NCBI RefSeq assembly: GCF_002554795.1
Contig: NZ_PDEQ01000005.1
Location: forward strand, 124,001-188,000
DNA length: 64,000 nt
Direction of reading: 5' to 3'
From: Longibacter salinarum
Lineage (GTDB): Bacteria; Bacteroidota; Rhodothermia; Rhodothermales; Salinibacteraceae
Shown: positions 28,005 through 37,317 of the stretch, one piece after another
Layout: the number at the start of each line of letters is the position of its first letter
Numbering within the stretch: the first letter of the stretch is position 1
The notes under the pieces: model-generated
Seen by the model: the letters and a program-made list of their open reading frames with translations, nothing else
Told to the model about the DNA's origin: nothing
Databases searched by the model: none
Translations under genes and position numbers: made by a program

Positions 28005-28982
28005 TTACGCTGCCTTCTGTGCCAGTAGACGGACCTGCTGCTCAATTGCATCCACGACTTCTGACACCCGATCGAGTCCGTCGGGATAGATGCACGCGTA
28101 CGCCGGCACCGTTCGAACGAGCGTAGCTAGCGCCTCCTGCCGTTGCGCGGACAGTCCGAGAGCATGGATCGACTGAGGCAGAAACGAATGCCGAATGCAC
28201 TCCATGATGGCTTCTGTGGGGGAAAGACGACGGAAGGCCACGTCCTGTGCGTCCGGACCTCGCTCCGGTATAAGCAATGCACGTAGCGGGACGGGATCGG
28301 ACTGAAACGTGCCAAATCCATCGACCCCGACGGGCACCCGCCGCTTGTCAAGATGAGGCACGACGCGCGGGAGGTCTGCCTCTCCAACCCAGCGCTGTAC
28401 CTGATCCGACCAGAGGCGCATCTGCGGATAGCCCGGCTGCGCCACCGGTCCGCTGGCACTCGTCGTGACAGCCAGAATGTCGTCCGTGAGCAACGGGTGC
28501 CCCCGCTCCATCATGGCGGCCGCCAGCGTGCTCTTCCCGGACTGACTTGTCGCAAGCATGCCAATGCCCGCCCCGTCCACGCTGACGCTCGCTGCATGCA
28601 GGGCCAACACCCCGCGCCGCTCCAGCCAGATCGCGAGCACGGGACCGAACAGCCAGACCTCGAGCGCGTCCGTCAGGTGCGGCTTCTTGAGATGACACGC
28701 GATCGTCTCCCGCCCGATGTAAATATCGGCCGCGCTGGCAAACCGAAGCACGGCGATGTCCGCGATGTCATCGTTCAGAAAAATCGCATCCGCCAGTCCG
28801 TCTTCGCCCTGTGACTCGATGTGTACTGGGCGTGCTCCGTCCCAGAAGTCGGGACGTGGAGACTCATCGACGACGCGGATACGAACGTCTGGAGCCCCAC
28901 TGGCTCGTGAAAGCGAGAACCGAAACGGATACGTCGATTCCAGCGTGATGCCATACGCCCGATAGATGGATGGAGAGGTCAC
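28005..28982 (-). CDS. HPr-kinase-like protein, predicted lasso-peptide kinase
   Basis: 325 residues, GTG start whose last two bases overlap the TGA of the preceding gene, so translation is coupled. The C-terminal half has the HPrK P-loop fold: LHAASV, Walker A GMLATSQSGKST (about 141-152) and the acidic LLTDDIL (about 164-170). The N-terminal half is the variable region seen in HPrK homologues of RiPP clusters rather than the HPrK_N domain of carbon regulation. Homologues in paeninodin-type lasso clusters phosphorylate the side chain of the C-terminal Ser of the precursor; the precursor 1.3 kb upstream ends in Ser. No HPr gene is near. Role inferred from family plus context. Confidence 0.82.
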   Translation of the reverse strand: MTSPSIYRAYGITLESTYPFRFSLSRASGAPDVRIRVVDESPRPDFWDGARPVHIESQGEDGLADAIFLNDDIADIAVLRFASAADIYIGRETIACHLKKPHLTDALEVWLFGPVLAIWLERRGVLALHAASVSVDGAGIGMLATSQSGKSTLAAAMMERGHPLLTDDILAVTTSASGPVAQPGYPQMRLWSDQVQRWVGEADLPRVVPHLDKRRVPVGVDGFGTFQSDPVPLRALLIPERGPDAQDVAFRRLSPTEAIMECIRHSFLPQSIHALGLSAQRQEALATLVRTVPAYACIYPDGLDRVSEVVDAIEQQVRLLAQKAA

Positions 28983-30193
28983 GAAACCGAAGCGTGATCG
29001 AAAGGGGCGGACGAAGACGAATGCTGCAAGACGTCGAACCGGACCAGTTCACCGATGAATTGTCGGGTATCGTCACGGAGCGACGCGGGAGACACGCTCG
29101 GAAACGAATCGGCAAGCCGTTCAATGGCCTCGTCGATGGACGACGCCTCCCAGAGCGCCTGCCAGAACATTGCGGAGCTGCCCGACATCGACATACACAC
29201 GCCCGACCGCGTGCTTGCAATGATCCACTTGGAATCGACCTCTGCGACGAACGTATGGGGACCGAGTGCACAGCCGGCGGTGGTTTCGGGCTGACGAAAG
29301 ACCGGCGGACGTGTTTCTGGGTTGGTGGCGTGACGGTTCTTGAGGCATGATGACGGCGAAACGACCGGCAGGCCACGCATGACCCGACCAAGCTCCTCGT
29401 CCCACACGCCGACATCGGGCTCGCTCCAGGCAAATGCCACGTGCTCGGGAACCCCCGTCCAGTACCGCTCCACCGGCCGGTTCTCCCAGCGATTTCGATA
29501 CGTACCAGCGTGATCACCCCAGCGCTCATCGGTGAAATCCTGCACGTCGCGCGCTCGGATGCACGCCCGCATCGCTGAATCCGTTTCTACCGCATCACAC
29601 AGAGCAGGCGTCGCATAAAGTGCGGCCACAACGAGATCGCGTCGGGACGCATTGTTCGTCACGAAGCGGTTTCGCTGTGCTCGAATCCGTGCACCGGTGA
29701 TGACACAATCGTCCACGATGACAAGCGGGTGTCCGTCGCTCGTTGCTTCCACGTCCCGCAGATCGATGATTTGATTGGGTCGCAGACCCAGCGCGTAGCT
29801 CAGCATGCCAAGCACGATCATTCCACCGCGCGGCAATCCGGCAAATCGCGCCTGCTCTAGGTCGGCACCGAGTCGATTCGACAGGTTCGCTGCCAGCACC
29901 TCGCAGTCTGTCTCCGCCTGCTGGTAGTCAACGTACCGAAGGTCGCGGACAGTCGACGGAACCTGGCGGACGAGCGCCTCCAGCCGGGATGCATCGGTAT
30001 CGTTCAGAAATCCGAGCATCGCGACCCGGCGGTCCGGCCTGGGTCGCACAACACACGCCATCGGAGGAAACGAAGACCACGCCGGACTTGTGACCATTCC
30101 TTCAGCCACGCGCATGACCCGTTCCGGGTCTGCGCCAGCAGCCTCTATCGGTATCTCAGTAACCACGCAGCGGGGCCGAAGGGGAGAAGACAT
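28979..30193 (-). CDS. Phosphoribosyltransferase-like / PqqD-RRE-like fusion in a lasso-peptide cluster
   Basis: 404 residues with two recognisable halves. Residues about 85-200 look like a type I phosphoribosyltransferase: FAGLPRGGMIVLGMLSYALGL (PRGG at 121-124) and the PRPP loop VIVDDCVITGARI (158-170), including the paired Asp residues. Residues about 300-392 look like a PqqD/RiPP-recognition element: a short beta start (FVAEVDSKWIIASTRSG) and then helices (MFWQALWEASSIDEAIERLADSF). In lasso systems the RRE binds the precursor leader and is usually a stand-alone B1 or fused to the B2 peptidase. Fusion to a PRTase-like domain is new to me and suggests PRPP-dependent modification of the peptide. 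It could also be a degenerate, purely structural PRTase fold. Confidence 0.75.
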   Translation of the reverse strand: MSSPLRPRCVVTEIPIEAAGADPERVMRVAEGMVTSPAWSSFPPMACVVRPRPDRRVAMLGFLNDTDASRLEALVRQVPSTVRDLRYVDYQQAETDCEVLAANLSNRLGADLEQARFAGLPRGGMIVLGMLSYALGLRPNQIIDLRDVEATSDGHPLVIVDDCVITGARIRAQRNRFVTNNASRRDLVVAALYATPALCDAVETDSAMRACIRARDVQDFTDERWGDHAGTYRNRWENRPVERYWTGVPEHVAFAWSEPDVGVWDEELGRVMRGLPVVSPSSCLKNRHATNPETRPPVFRQPETTAGCALGPHTFVAEVDSKWIIASTRSGVCMSMSGSSAMFWQALWEASSIDEAIERLADSFPSVSPASLRDDTRQFIGELVRFDVLQHSSSSAPFDHASVS

Positions 30194-30232
30194 ACGGTCC
30201 GGTCTTCAGGGAAACAGCGACACATGAGAGAA

Positions 30233-30274
30233 CAGGCGTGCGACGCACCTCTTTCGGTCTACGCCCCACGCCTG
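30233..30274 (-). other. Stem-loop between precursor gene and PRTase-RRE gene
   Basis: Perfect 8-bp stem CAGGCGTG (30233-30240) / CACGCCTG (30267-30274) with a 26-nt loop, in the 107-base gap between the precursor stop (30301) and the next start (30193). No U-tract follows. Such stem-loops after RiPP precursor genes often stabilise the precursor mRNA or reduce read-through; that role is inferred. Confidence 0.4.
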
Positions 30275-30300
30275 CCCAAGAATCTCCTGAGGGGTCCCGA

Positions 30301-30465
30301 CTAACTCTGGTTCCCCCAGCAGTTTGCGTTCATACTTGATCCGCGTAGGTCATCTCCATACACCTGACAGTCACTACCGGGATTGGTGCGTCCCGCGGCT
30401 GTCAGGTCGGCCACCGTTCCATGCACTTTTAGGCGTGGCGACTCATATTTTTTGGAGTCTTTCAT
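30301..30465 (-). CDS. Lasso peptide precursor (54 residues)
   Basis: A short gene, ATG at 30465, stop TAG at 30303-30301. Its ATG overlaps the TGA of the cyclase gene (ATGA), so it is translationally coupled. Residues 7-22 read YESPRLKVHGTVADLT, an exact fit to the lasso leader pattern Y-xx-P-x-L-xxx-G-xxxxx-T that RRE domains bind. Using the conserved Thr at position -2, the core starts at Ala24 with AGRTNPGSD, so Asp32 is core residue 9 and can close a 9-residue Ala1-Asp9 macrolactam. The core is 31 residues, has Cys at core positions 10 and 26 (a possible disulfide), and ends GNQS. A C-terminal Ser suits the HPrK-like kinase in the cluster. An 8-membered ring from Gly25 is the alternative. 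Confidence 0.9.
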   Translation of the reverse strand: MKDSKKYESPRLKVHGTVADLTAAGRTNPGSDCQVYGDDLRGSSMNANCWGNQS

Positions 30466-32402
30466 AACGTCGTTGTGTGTCTATGAGAAAAACTTGGCCG
30501 GGACTTGTCATCTGAAGCGTGAGCACAGTGTTGCCGCAGCCATCGCTCAAGTACCAGCGTATACCAGAACCGGTGATCGTTTTGCCGACCCTCCCGGAAC
30601 TCATCGTAATACGCACGCAGACGATGGACATCGATAAAGCCCAGGTCGCGTAGCCTTGGACCCTTTAATAACGCGGCGACATGTTCTTTCTCCGTCATCC
30701 TTAGCGCACGGAGAAACAGTGCTTCCGGATATATCTTCTGCGCTCGCACACCGGGCATCATCTCCTCAAAGGCCGCTCGAGCAACAGATTTATTCTCCCC
30801 ACCACGGCAGATTACCGACGGTGGAACGGCCATAACCCATTCGAACAGCCGTCGGTCGCTCCACGGATCGGCCGACGCAAGTCCCTCACGGACTGCATCA
30901 AAGTTATTGCGTGTCCCGCCTCGCATGTGCCCCCCGAGCGTAGCCAGTTCGTACCGCTCGCGGCGAACACCGCTCAGTCCGATCGGAATGTGCGAGGACG
31001 AACCAGACGGCGCCGGGTAGTGACGCAGAGCATCGGTCGCCCAGGGCGGACAATCGACTCGCGGTACGGGCGAATCTTCCGGTGAACGCAAGCCGCTCGC
31101 TCGAAGCCAACGACCGACTCTGACACGTAGTGGCCCGATGACTTGCTCACGCACGACATCACGCAACGGCCGATTCTCCCGCTCCGCATGCTGGAGAAGC
31201 TCGCTCACCAGACGGTACCATTGTCCCGACCCCAACAGGCCGAGATAGTCGAATAGCCGGCCGCCCACCATCAGATCGCCATGATGCCCGCTCATCAGCG
31301 TGCAGCACGAGTCACGCGCCGCCAGCTCGTATCCCCTGAGTAGAAGGTGATGAAACCCGGAGACGTACGGCTCCTCCAGGTTGGGCTCCGGGTCGCGACG
31401 GACGAGCGGTACGGAATCAACGTCAATGAGCGTCGACGAAAATCCGTACCGGCAAACGATTTCGTCGCTGACGAACCGCTCATCACACACGGGCAGCGTC
31501 GGGAAGTCGAACGAATACGTTCGGAGTGGCGCGACCGAAACGCCTTGCTCATCAAGCCAACCGGCCGTCACGGCGATAGCGGTTGAATCTACACCGCCAC
31601 TCAGCAGCAGGCCGACCGGGTCGGGCGTTTGCAATCGACAGCGAACCGCCTCGGCAAACAGTTCGCGGAAATGCTCGACGTACTCCTCGTCCCGCCGATA
31701 GCGAATTCTTTGGCCGGGGTCAATGTCCCAGACCCGGCGCACGGCCGACGATCCCGGCGATGCAATGAGAGCATGCGCCGGAGGCACGGCGTGGATGCCC
31801 TCAATGAACGTGTGCGAGGGATGCTCGAAGTCGCCAGCCAGATATGCGGCAATAGCAGGCTCGTGCAGGTCGCTCGACACGCCGGGGACCGCCGTGATCG
31901 CCCCAACCTCGGATGCTAGCAGGAGTCGATCGCCGTCCTGCCGGTAGTACAGGCCGCGCATGGCCATCGGGTCGCGGGCCGCAAAGAGCCGGCGTCGGGC
32001 TGGATCCCAGACCGCGAAGGCAAAGTCGCCAATCAGGTGCTCGAGGCAAGCCGTGCCCCATCGTCGAAATGCCGCGGCGATCAGGTCCGTGTCCGATGCG
32101 TCGGGACGCAGATCATTAGCCAGTATATGCTCCAGATCCTCACGGTTGTCGATTCTCGCATCGGCCACGACGATCAGGCCCCCACGCCGCGACGCATCAC
32201 CGTGCTTTCTAATCCTGCGCTCTTTCGTCGCGTGATCCGCGTGCGTGACGTGCAGGTCGAATTGCACGAGAGCTGCGTCCGCGTCCATCGAAGCCTGCAC
32301 GCCATCCGGTCCTCGGTGCGCGAGCGCTGAGACCATTGCCTGTGCCGCGTCCGGCGCCCCGGGGCGACGATCGAAGTGAATGCAGGCACAGAGGCCTCCC
32401 AT
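30462..32402 (-). CDS. Lasso peptide cyclase (asparagine-synthetase-like, C protein)
   Basis: 646 residues with both parts of glutamine-dependent asparagine synthetase: an N-terminal glutaminase-like domain (about 1-210, with HRGPDG and IGDFAFAVWD) and a C-terminal ATP-pyrophosphatase domain whose PPi loop LLLSGGVDST is at about 266-274. The protein begins MGGLCAC, so the nucleophilic Cys2 of active glutaminases is replaced by Gly and ammonia cannot be made. That loss is common in lasso cyclases, which use the synthetase domain to adenylate an Asp/Glu side chain and join it to the core's N-terminus. The lasso precursor gene starts in overlap with its stop. Without that context it would be called a degenerate AsnB. 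Confidence 0.88.
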   Translation of the reverse strand: MGGLCACIHFDRRPGAPDAAQAMVSALAHRGPDGVQASMDADAALVQFDLHVTHADHATKERRIRKHGDASRRGGLIVVADARIDNREDLEHILANDLRPDASDTDLIAAAFRRWGTACLEHLIGDFAFAVWDPARRRLFAARDPMAMRGLYYRQDGDRLLLASEVGAITAVPGVSSDLHEPAIAAYLAGDFEHPSHTFIEGIHAVPPAHALIASPGSSAVRRVWDIDPGQRIRYRRDEEYVEHFRELFAEAVRCRLQTPDPVGLLLSGGVDSTAIAVTAGWLDEQGVSVAPLRTYSFDFPTLPVCDERFVSDEIVCRYGFSSTLIDVDSVPLVRRDPEPNLEEPYVSGFHHLLLRGYELAARDSCCTLMSGHHGDLMVGGRLFDYLGLLGSGQWYRLVSELLQHAERENRPLRDVVREQVIGPLRVRVGRWLRASGLRSPEDSPVPRVDCPPWATDALRHYPAPSGSSSHIPIGLSGVRRERYELATLGGHMRGGTRNNFDAVREGLASADPWSDRRLFEWVMAVPPSVICRGGENKSVARAAFEEMMPGVRAQKIYPEALFLRALRMTEKEHVAALLKGPRLRDLGFIDVHRLRAYYDEFREGRQNDHRFWYTLVLERWLRQHCAHASDDKSRPSFSHRHTTTL

Positions 32403-35124: not shown

Positions 35125-35386
35125 TTGCCCCTGCCCTACGGGTCGGACAACGGTAGATACCGTTTTCCTGACATACCAATCGAGAAAATGCGCAACCCGT
35201 AGCTACCCGATTCCTGCGAACGGAATACGCTGAAACCGGTTAACGGAGCATAGCAGTTCGTTCTACTTTTTTGTATCCGGCATGAACGCCTTTGCTCATC
35301 CGTGGACAAGGGCTGGCGGGCGCGGTCGCTGTAGGCATGTCGGTATTCACACGTATAACCTCCCACCTACAGCCACTAGGATCGCG

Positions 35387-36094
35387 ATGAAAACAGACAC
35401 CGAATGGGGATACGTTGGCGAGGAAGGTCCCACCCACTGGGCCGACCTGTCGAATGAGTTCTGCGCATGCGGAGGAGATCGGCAGTCTCCGATCGATCTA
35501 CCCGTTCATGCGGCGGCGGAAGAGACCCTCGCCCTCTCCATCGACTACACCAAAGCTGATGGTACACTGAGTTATTCGAGTTACGGCGTCAAGATGCAGC
35601 TGAAGGGGGGCACGCTCACGCTGGACGGGACGACGTACGAACTTGTCCAATTCCACTTCCACACGCCCAGCGAGCATCAAATCGGGGGGCGCAGCTTCCC
35701 CGGCGAGATGCACCTCGTCCACGTGAGCGAAAGCGGTCATCTAGTTGTTATCGGCATTTTTCTCGAGAATGGGAAGACCAACTCCACCCTTGCTCCCATC
35801 TGGTCAACCTTTCCCGAGGTCGAGACGGCCCCGCCCATACCGTTCGATCCCTCGGACCTGCTGCCACCCAGCCGGACGGGCTATGTATACGAAGGCTCGC
35901 TGACCACGCCACCCTGCACCGAGGACGTGACGTGGCTGGTGCTAAGTGAGCCGCTATATCTCTCCGACGTTCAGATCGAGAAACTGGCGGCCGTCCACGC
36001 GGAGATCAACGTGCACAACAGTCGGCCCGTCCAGCCGGTCAATGATCGACACGTACGGTTCGTGTCGCTACATCCAGCGCCCCGACTTGCGTAA
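35387..36094 (+). CDS. Alpha-class carbonic anhydrase without a signal peptide
   Basis: Interconverts CO2 and bicarbonate. 235 residues from the ATG at 35387 (MKTDTEWGYVGEEGP). Zinc ligands are visible: two His in QFHFHTPSEH (90 and 92) and His109 in EMHLVH; also QSPIDL and EGSLTTPPCTEDVTWLVL. The paired Cys positions (26/28 and 177) match the disulfide of secreted alpha-CAs, yet no hydrophobic signal precedes the domain, and the in-frame extension to 35282 is not signal-like either. So it may be cytosolic, exported by another route, or its true start is missed. A beta-class enzyme that does carry a signal peptide lies 0.5 kb downstream. Confidence 0.93.
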   Translation: MKTDTEWGYVGEEGPTHWADLSNEFCACGGDRQSPIDLPVHAAAEETLALSIDYTKADGTLSYSSYGVKMQLKGGTLTLDGTTYELVQFHFHTPSEHQIGGRSFPGEMHLVHVSESGHLVVIGIFLENGKTNSTLAPIWSTFPEVETAPPIPFDPSDLLPPSRTGYVYEGSLTTPPCTEDVTWLVLSEPLYLSDVQIEKLAAVHAEINVHNSRPVQPVNDRHVRFVSLHPAPRLA

Positions 36095-36570
36095 TCAGCG
36101 GTTTACTTGTTCCTGTGGACGCAAGCGTAGAGGCTATTGCGCGTAGGTCATGGTTATCACATTTGTCACAACAGGTGCCCCTCGATTGCCGGAACCAATC
36201 GAGTGAAAGAAAGGTCTGTGTCTATGCTGAACAGACCATCCATCTTGCGATGCACGGGTGGTCGACGCCCCCGTACAATGAAGATGAATACATTCACTCA
36301 ACTGAATTGTAGTCCTCGTGTCAGGGCAGGATACAGGTTCCTCATTACGAGGATGGGTACGACGTAGCATCTGAACATGTCGCTCCGGGTCTGAGCCAGA
36401 ATCGCTCCAGGTTTATGTTCGCGCCGTAGAGGCCGAACCTCGATGATTCTGGCTCGGGGCCGGACCCGAGCGGGCCAACCACACCGCGTCAATGGTCCCA
36501 CGCGTTCGGAATCCCCATACCCGGCACCCTGCCGGAATCACCCATCCCATACGATTGATCAGTCGATACA
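36095..36570. other. Gap between the two carbonic anhydrase genes
   Basis: About 475 bases with short frames but no convincing gene. It contains a long imperfect inverted repeat (36381-36472, listed separately) and a smaller CCTCGT/ACGAGG dyad near 36313-36353. The promoter of the beta-CA gene probably lies in the last 80 bases. Confidence 0.4.
36381..36472. repeat. Long imperfect inverted repeat
   Basis: The core is a perfect 11-bp dyad GAGCCAGAATC (36393-36403) / GATTCTGGCTC (36445-36455) with 41 bases between. Outer arms also match imperfectly: CGCTCCGGGTC on the left against GACCCGAGCG on the right. No transposase or flanking duplication was found; it could be a small mobile-element relic or an RNA structure. 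Confidence 0.5.
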
Positions 36571-37317
36571 ATGAGGCGAATTCTGTTTCTCTTTTCCCTC
36601 CTCCTCGTTATCCAGACCGGCGTCGCCGTTGCTCAGGAAAAACCCGACGTGTCCGATCGGGATCTGACGCAGGCGCTCACGAAGGAAATGCAGGCGGCAC
36701 TAACCCCGATGGATGTCATCCAGCTACTGAAGGATGGCAACCAGCGGTTTATAAATGACGAAGCCCTTGAGCGCAACTTCCTGGAGCAGGTTGCGCAAAC
36801 GGCCGAGGGCCAATACCCGATGGCCGCTGTTCTCGGCTGCATCGATAGCCGCGTCCCCCACGAGATCATCTTCGACAAAGGCGTCGGCGACATCTTCTCC
36901 GCTCGCGTCGCAGGAAACTTTATCAATACGGACATCCTCGGTAGCCTTGAGTTTGCGGCCGCCGTTGCTGGCTCCAAAGTGATCGTCGTCCTCGGCCACT
37001 CCGAGTGCGGAGCCGTCAAAGGGGCCTGTGATCAGGTGGAACTCGGCAACCTGACGAGTACGCTCGCCAACATCGCCCCCGCGATCTACTCCGTCACCGA
37101 TGTCGAGGGAGAACGCAATTCGTCGAATAAGGCGTTCGTCGATGCGGTCGCTCACGAGAACGTGGACATCACCGTGCAAAACATTGTGGATCGCAGCCCG
37201 GTAATCCGTGACCTCGTGGAGAAAGGCGAACTGATCGTTGTCGGCGCTATGCACAACGTCACGTCGGGCGAGGTCACGTTCTTCGAGGACAACATGCTCA
37301 CGGCAGATACGCTCTAA
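36571..37317 (+). CDS. Beta-class carbonic anhydrase with signal peptide
   Basis: 248 residues. An N-terminal signal peptide (MRRILFLFSLLLVIQTGVAVAQ) ends in a plausible Ala-x-Ala-Gln site, so the enzyme should be periplasmic. The beta-CA zinc site is complete: Cys90 and the Asp-Arg dyad in LGCIDSRVP, and His143 and Cys146 in LGHSECGAVKGA. The ARVAGNF motif is present. Most beta-CAs are cytosolic; exported ones are a minority. Together with the signal-less alpha-CA upstream, this gives the reverse of the usual locations for the two classes. Confidence 0.94.
   Translation: MRRILFLFSLLLVIQTGVAVAQEKPDVSDRDLTQALTKEMQAALTPMDVIQLLKDGNQRFINDEALERNFLEQVAQTAEGQYPMAAVLGCIDSRVPHEIIFDKGVGDIFSARVAGNFINTDILGSLEFAAAVAGSKVIVVLGHSECGAVKGACDQVELGNLTSTLANIAPAIYSVTDVEGERNSSNKAFVDAVAHENVDITVQNIVDRSPVIRDLVEKGELIVVGAMHNVTSGEVTFFEDNMLTADTL

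Follow-up and report, generated by a model that had tools for sequence, protein, structure and literature searches.

A kinase and an RRE-fused phosphoribosyltransferase as a possible tailoring pair in a lasso peptide cluster of Longibacter salinarum

The 64,000-nucleotide stretch of Longibacter salinarum DNA analysed here (the window; contig NZ_PDEQ01000005.1, positions 124,001 to 188,000) holds, as judged from its genes, a lasso peptide biosynthetic cluster, and a threaded lariat is the predicted product. The cluster is ordinary as a lasso cluster with a kinase. Its unusual part is a pair of adjoining genes, one for an HprK-like kinase and one for a phosphoribosyltransferase (PRTase) fused to a leader-binding RRE domain. 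Kinase and PRTase-RRE were found to be inherited together as a unit, and the peptide encoded beside them is probably decorated in its ring and not on its last residue. Gene content, protein folds, co-inheritance of the pair, conservation of core position 4 and the lack of conservation of a C-terminal Ser were established by computation. The original prediction for this cluster named the PRTase-RRE without weighing it, although no other part is as distinctive.

The four genes run on the minus strand in the order cyclase, precursor, PRTase-RRE and kinase. All are open frames, and two of the joints are overlaps of four bases: the precursor ATG and the cyclase stop share ATGA (30462-30465), and the GTG start of the kinase and the stop of the PRTase-RRE gene share GTGA (28979-28982), as originally noted for the latter joint. 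The features are as follows.

30462..32402, minus strand: lasso macrolactam cyclase (C protein, asparagine-synthase-like), 646 amino acids; PF00733, 100.5 bits
30301..30465, minus strand: lasso precursor, 54 amino acids; leader YxxPxL...G...LT; NF033521, 22.5 bits (cut-off 19)
30304..30396, minus strand: predicted core AGRTNPGSDCQVYGDDLRGSSMNANCWGNQS, 31 amino acids; register from leader Thr(-2)
30385..30387, minus strand: codon of ring Thr4, proposed modification site; Ser/Thr conserved at position 4 in PRTase-linked precursors, putative function
28979..30193, minus strand: PRTase fused to a lasso RRE, 404 amino acids; PF05402, PF24390; AlphaFold model with a mean predicted local distance difference test score (pLDDT) of 84.9
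29300..29950, minus strand: type I (6-oxopurine-like) PRTase domain, residues ~82-298; PRGG pyrophosphate loop and VDDxxxTGxR loop for phosphoribosyl pyrophosphate (PRPP)
29021..29278, minus strand: RRE domain, residues ~306-391; TbiB1 5v1u_B, Z 12.1, root-mean-square deviation (rmsd) 2.0, 86 aligned; TfuB1 6jx3_B, Z 12.1
28005..28982, minus strand: HprK-like lasso tailoring kinase, 325 amino acids; TIGR04352, 40.5 bits (cut-off 200); TIGR00679, 25.9 bits (cut-off 240)
28479..28598, minus strand: kinase catalytic stretch H129 ... ATSQSGKS ... D167-D168; residues invariant in the alignment

The PRTase-RRE fusion and its kinase partner

The C-terminal PqqD/RRE domain of the fusion was recognized by PF05402 (32 bits, cut-off 23.4); PF24390 gave 24.7 bits, below its cut-off of 27. 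A sequence profile matched the same domain to TbiB1 at E 1.3e-11. Structurally, the modelled PRTase domain lies nearest to the 6-oxopurine PRTases, with 5bqp_B matching at Z 14.4, rmsd 4.1 and 157 aligned. Both the fold and the PRPP and pyrophosphate loops expected of a type I PRTase were found. The PRPP loop, V-D-D-x3-[TS]-G-x-R, was present in all 18 PRTase-RREs, and the PRGG pyrophosphate loop in 17 of the 18, the remaining one (L011) being truncated by a contig end. Since both loops are kept across the homologues, the PRTase site looks active. In its fold and in these two loops the domain resembles the 6-oxopurine (hypoxanthine/xanthine-guanine) PRTases, but it differs from them in the RRE fusion, in a PRPP loop that ends in Arg (18/18) and in being encoded together with a peptide kinase.

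The kinase is a lasso-cluster type of the HprK/PEPCK fold, distant from true HPr kinase. H129, K150, D167 and D168 were invariant across an alignment of 11 rows, and an H-K-D-D motif is given for lasso kinases in a review (PMC9266682). The Walker A loop reads A-T-S-Q-S-G-K-S; the original description of it as intact needs a nuance, as Ala replaces the first Gly here and in most of the clade. The predicted structure (mean pLDDT 85.7) matched phosphoenolpyruvate (PEP) carboxykinase 2pc9_B (Z 17.5, rmsd 5.3, 277 aligned) and, over residues 124-325, HPr kinase 1kkl_A (Z 15.2, rmsd 2.5, 140 aligned). Identity with a true HPr kinase/phosphorylase was ruled out by the TIGR00679 score far below its cut-off, by a PF07475 score of 26.6 bits against a cut-off of 33.3, and by a separate true HprK encoded on contig C4 of the same genome (221.4 bits), in agreement with the original assignment to a lasso-type homologue.

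PRTase-RRE turned out to be uncommon, with a patchy distribution over six bacterial phyla, namely the phylum of L. salinarum, Deinococcota, Cyanobacteriota, Gemmatimonadota, Chloroflexota and Spirochaetota. Among close relatives it occurred in 6 of 100 genomes including its own, and in two of these six the match was short or weak. When species genomes were scanned, 12 loci emerged, from Trueperaceae, Nodosilinea, Gemmatimonadetes, Salinibacteraceae/Rhodothermaceae, Chloroflexota, Spirochaetales and one metagenome-assembled genome (MAG) labelled Euryarchaeota, whose locus is a single 5.4-kb contig. In phylum samples, at a threshold of E <= 1e-30 and with the centre genome included in every count, PRTase-RRE was seen in 2/386 genomes of the phylum of Nodosilinea, 1/400 of that of the Chloroflexota MAG, 4/346 of that of the Gemmatimonadetes MAG, 1/247 of that of the Spirochaetales MAG and 2/394 of its own phylum; these rates are lower bounds, as the whole-phylum profile searches scored the best few candidates per genome. 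The idea of a plasmid-borne PRTase gene was rejected, since a search in 72,556 plasmid records gave no match.

The kinase adjoins PRTase-RRE at 16 of 18 loci, clearly at 14 and weakly at L032 and L034; no adjacent kinase was found at L029 and L033. Two further entries, L027 and L031, duplicate the records of L010 and L011, and the short or weak matches L006/L012/L035 and L007/L013 were left out. Kinase and PRTase distances were correlated (Mantel r 0.48, p 0.006, n=12 loci, L071 excluded), the more so with L061 removed (r 0.55, p 0.0025, n=11). In kinase trees, 12 of 13 PRTase-linked kinases fell in one clade with support of 100/100 (29 rows) or 99/100 (33 rows, with the long-branched L111 omitted from this second tree but retained in the counts), and the only one outside it was that of L061. 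The clade of the window kinase (99/100) excludes two Bacilli kinases with Ser-ending precursors, one annotated as paeninodin family; these plasmid kinases (L123, L124) served as stand-ins for the paeninodin type in place of PadeK and ThcoK themselves. The kinase of L124 (4980-5915, a Priestia aryabhattai plasmid) is annotated as an aldolase, apparently in error.

The precursors beside the pair

The precursor consists of the leader MKDSKKYESPRLKVHGTVADLTA followed by the core. Placing the leader Thr at -2 gives a core that reads AGRTNPGSDCQ...GNQS, so that the Ala-Gly start, the Asp at position 9 and the C-terminal Ser pointed out originally were all recovered in the translation. Two Cys residues occupy positions 10 and 26, and a ring of nine residues closed at Asp9 is predicted. 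The assignment to a lasso cluster was based on this Asp in the 7-9 range together with the YxxPxL...T(-2) leader, on the macrolactam cyclase of asparagine-synthase type, and on the RRE domain with its sequence and structure matches to TbiB1 and TfuB1. The best NCBIfam model for the cyclase, NF033535, scored 325.4 bits, below its strict cut-off of 525. A B2 leader peptidase was missing from the cluster and was found in trans only.

A recognisable precursor was found at 10 of the 18 PRTase-RRE loci (none at L011, L029, L032, L033, L034, L061, L071 and L073), and these ten were verified against the translated loci. The L030 and L024 precursors were used to seek precursor relatives on plasmids; there was no match other than chance ones at E 6-9. 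For comparison, precursors beside lasso kinases without PRTase were collected: 38 leader matches were listed and 20 regions taken, six regions were dropped for lack of a kinase match (L105, L110, L113, L114, L119, L122), L103 was dropped for having only a kinase fragment (its precursor ends in Ser), and the kinase-bearing L109 gave no precursor fitting the pattern. L019 and L009 added one control precursor each, and the final control set comprised 18 precursors from 14 loci. Of these precursors, the six from L115 and L121 have no Asp or Glu at positions 7-9 and are of uncertain register or lasso nature. The kinase clusters L115 and L121 (genomes G003 and G010, same family) contain three such precursors apiece; every one of them ends in -DCS, and judging by their cores they may not form ordinary lasso rings.

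The last residues of the ten precursors beside the pair were S (window), G, R, R, R, R, V, W, G and I. A terminal Ser is thus confined to the window's own precursor. Ser accounts for 9.2% of the residues in the cores, a frequency at which a set of ten would include one or more Ser-ending precursors with a probability of 0.62. In the control set 9 of 18 precursors end in Ser. Among plasmid regions (eight taken, six scanned for precursors, five readable), four of the five readable precursors end in Ser, namely those from Paenibacillus, Priestia ('paeninodin family'), Sulfitobacter and Paracoccus, but not that of the archaeon Halopiger. The terminal-Ser label was scattered on the kinase tree, with 7 changes, a number matched by about 100 of 500 shuffles. 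The 1/10 count rules out the C-terminal Ser as a conserved site, and the terminal Ser of the window precursor looks like chance.

Conservation was instead observed at core position 4, which in the ten precursors is T, V, S, T, T, T, S, T, T and T. Ser or Thr at this position was found in 9/10 PRTase-linked precursors versus 2/18 controls (Fisher 7e-5), and in the strictest count, with the alternative register for L025 and near-copies removed, in 8/10 versus 2/15 (p 0.002), both p-values being guides only. The ring often follows the pattern xGx[TS]xPGxD, the clearest pair being AGRTNPGSD of the window and AGGTNPGSD of the Spirochaetales.

A proposed tailoring route and the alternatives to it

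In the proposed mechanism the kinase and the RRE-fused PRTase would form a two-enzyme tailoring module working on the precursor before removal of the leader. The RRE of the fusion would dock onto the YxxPxL leader, the kinase would phosphorylate the conserved ring Thr4 rather than the C-terminal Ser, and the PRTase would then use PRPP as the donor of a 5-phosphoribose group, whose likeliest acceptor would be the same phosphate or hydroxyl. Finally, the leader peptidase and RRE from another contig, with the local cyclase, would form the lasso. That the pair acts on the precursor is probable, and the chances that Thr4 is a modified residue appear about even. Transfer of phosphoribose, argued from analogy, is a tentative suggestion that falls somewhat short of this, and the explanation taken as a whole is offered with equal reserve.

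Substrate, site, order and chemistry are inferred, with four partly comparable systems as precedents. In PMC10368454, BsfK is described as phosphorylating core Ser3 of a precursor ending in Asp, aided by an RRE, and the plain RRE BsfB1 as strongly stimulating BsfK. LppK likewise phosphorylates core Ser3, according to PMC13381572, and an HprK-like kinase hence does not imply a C-terminal site. In pseudomycoidin, as summarised in PMC9266682, PsmN adds hexoses on a serine phosphorylated by PsmK. For the mycobacterial Rv3806c, PMC10994848 describes transfer of phosphoribose from PRPP onto a phosphate, by an enzyme of unrelated, UbiA-like fold. The present cluster resembles Bsf (BsfK, BsfB1) and LPP (LppK) in its HprK-like kinase and RRE and in a proposed site near the N terminus of the core; like the present precursor's relatives, BsfA is reported not to end in Ser. 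In contrast to the Ser3 of Bsf and LPP, the window core has Arg3, and Ser or Thr occurs at position 3 in 1/10 precursors, these residues being found at position 4 instead; the available passages on Bsf and LPP mention no PRTase. Pseudomycoidin (PsmK and PsmN) shares the combination of a kinase with a second, proposed sugar-adding enzyme at the phosphorylated residue, but its PsmN is described as a nucleotidyltransferase homologue and not a PRTase, and its site is the C-terminal Ser. Among the papers searched, no relevant precedent emerged for a PRTase that works with an RRE or in a lasso cluster; PMC11705953 was set aside, as its PRTase is HisZ, used as a taxonomic marker.

Several points weigh against this mechanism. 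The precursor of L009 has Val4 beside the pair, and that of L025 has Thr4 in just one of two possible registers. As the ten precursors are related, they are less independent than the tests assume, and nine ring sites had been inspected before position 4 was chosen. The ring motif could be retained for structure. The PRTase retains an F-x-W-x-E-P element, which resembles the base-binding region of 6-oxopurine PRTases, and this resemblance hints at a base-like acceptor over a hydroxyl. No cyclase was found near the pairs of L032, L034 and L061, and the module is therefore not strictly tied to lasso formation. At these three loci the module is possibly used by another peptide class.

The foremost alternative is that the PRTase domain is a scaffold or a PRPP or nucleotide sensor, the RRE presenting the leader to the kinase and a phosphate on the ring being the only group added. 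PurR- and PyrR-type regulators are precedents for PRTase-fold sensors, PyrR was among the structural matches (4p86_A, Z 12.5), and Ile or Leu stands here at the position of the general-base Asp of 6-oxopurine PRTases. The reported stimulation of BsfK by a plain RRE also fits such a role. However, the residues of the PRPP and pyrophosphate loops are kept across very distant homologues, and a pure scaffold would be redundant in the several clusters that have a separate stand-alone RRE. This alternative was considered rather unlikely.

Phosphorylation of the C-terminal Ser31, as originally put forward by comparison with paeninodin, fared worse and was judged improbable. Paeninodin also begins with Ala-Gly and has Asp9, and the paeninodin cluster (PadeK, ThcoK) and its family share with the window a cyclase, a short precursor, an H-K-D-D HprK-like kinase, an RRE and a predicted ring of nine residues. 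The Ser-ending precursor, the catalytic residues of the kinase and the four Ser-ending plasmid precursors beside related kinases all speak in its favour. But nine of the ten precursors beside the same kinase/PRTase pair have no terminal Ser, an outcome named at the outset as one that would refute the claim, and the window kinase lies outside the paeninodin-type branch. The window cluster further differs from the paeninodin family in its PRTase-RRE fusion, in having no B2 inside, and in a YxxP instead of a WxxP leader; W is nearly invariant in paeninodin-like leaders, as stated in PMC13381572. A phosphorylated lasso peptide as such stays plausible, but its C-terminal site is unsupported.

Still less probable is a role of the pair in the synthesis or salvage of some small, nucleotide-like compound needed elsewhere, with the peptide left untouched; the PRTase fold is nearest to purine salvage enzymes and three pairs have no nearby cyclase, yet the lasso-type RRE to which the PRTase is joined is a domain that binds leaders. 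Equally improbable is a decaying remnant without a product, as might be read from the lack of an adjacent B2 and from the relative L010 with its cyclase in two pieces and a transposase-like open reading frame between, given that all four window genes are open, that two of their joints overlap by four bases and that B2 with an RRE, an ABC transporter and a nucleotidyltransferase are present on contig C3. In L010 (7618-10966, genome G009) the second cyclase piece runs in frame into the precursor with no stop codon, the transposase-like frame having been read by eye.

Parts supplied in trans and other lasso loci

A B2 leader peptidase was sought in the window and none was found. The genome (99.76% complete) has a single PF13471 (B2) match, on contig C3, where B2 lies beside an ABC transporter, a nucleotidyltransferase and a stand-alone RRE (L008, 5222-9315; neighbours identified from translations and matches). 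No cyclase or precursor was seen at this locus, and it is possibly a shared maturation locus for two distant lasso loci. The second of these lies on contig C6 (L019, 6175-9625) and encodes a cyclase, a kinase that falls in a different clade, and a precursor whose core, AGQNGYCLDDSFQAGTPFDDLTFSVCS, ends in ...SVCS. Judged by its sequence, L019 would be a better candidate for a paeninodin-like C-terminal phosphoserine than the window locus; its nearest relative (L116) ends in His, not Ser. As the sole B2 is on contig C3, it must act in trans if either lasso locus is active. In the relative L009, B2 lies directly upstream of the cyclase.

Two further observations were made. A plasmid of Halopiger xanaduensis (L127, 3743-8848) carries an archaeal lasso cluster with an HprK-like kinase, a nucleotidyltransferase, B2, an RRE and a Thr-ending precursor. 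In the window, genes for an alpha-type and a beta-type carbonic anhydrase stand side by side at 35282-37317, as read by eye from their translations.

One B2 would thus serve at least two distant lasso loci in this organism, and clusters without B2 are not to be dismissed. The presence of an HprK-like kinase is not in itself enough to predict a C-terminal phosphoserine for a lasso cluster, and the conserved ring residue offers a concrete, testable site. PRTases are known as nucleotide-making enzymes. Here one is fused to a domain that binds leaders and, in several phyla, has been inherited along with a peptide kinase, an arrangement that points to a modification of peptides; no precedent for it was found in the papers searched. 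It is conceivable, if rather doubtful, that the pair marks a cross-phylum lasso subfamily in which a ring Thr or Ser would be phosphorylated by the HprK-like kinase and then phosphoribosylated by the leader-docking PRTase-RRE, to give a sugar-phosphate, nucleotide-like peptide.

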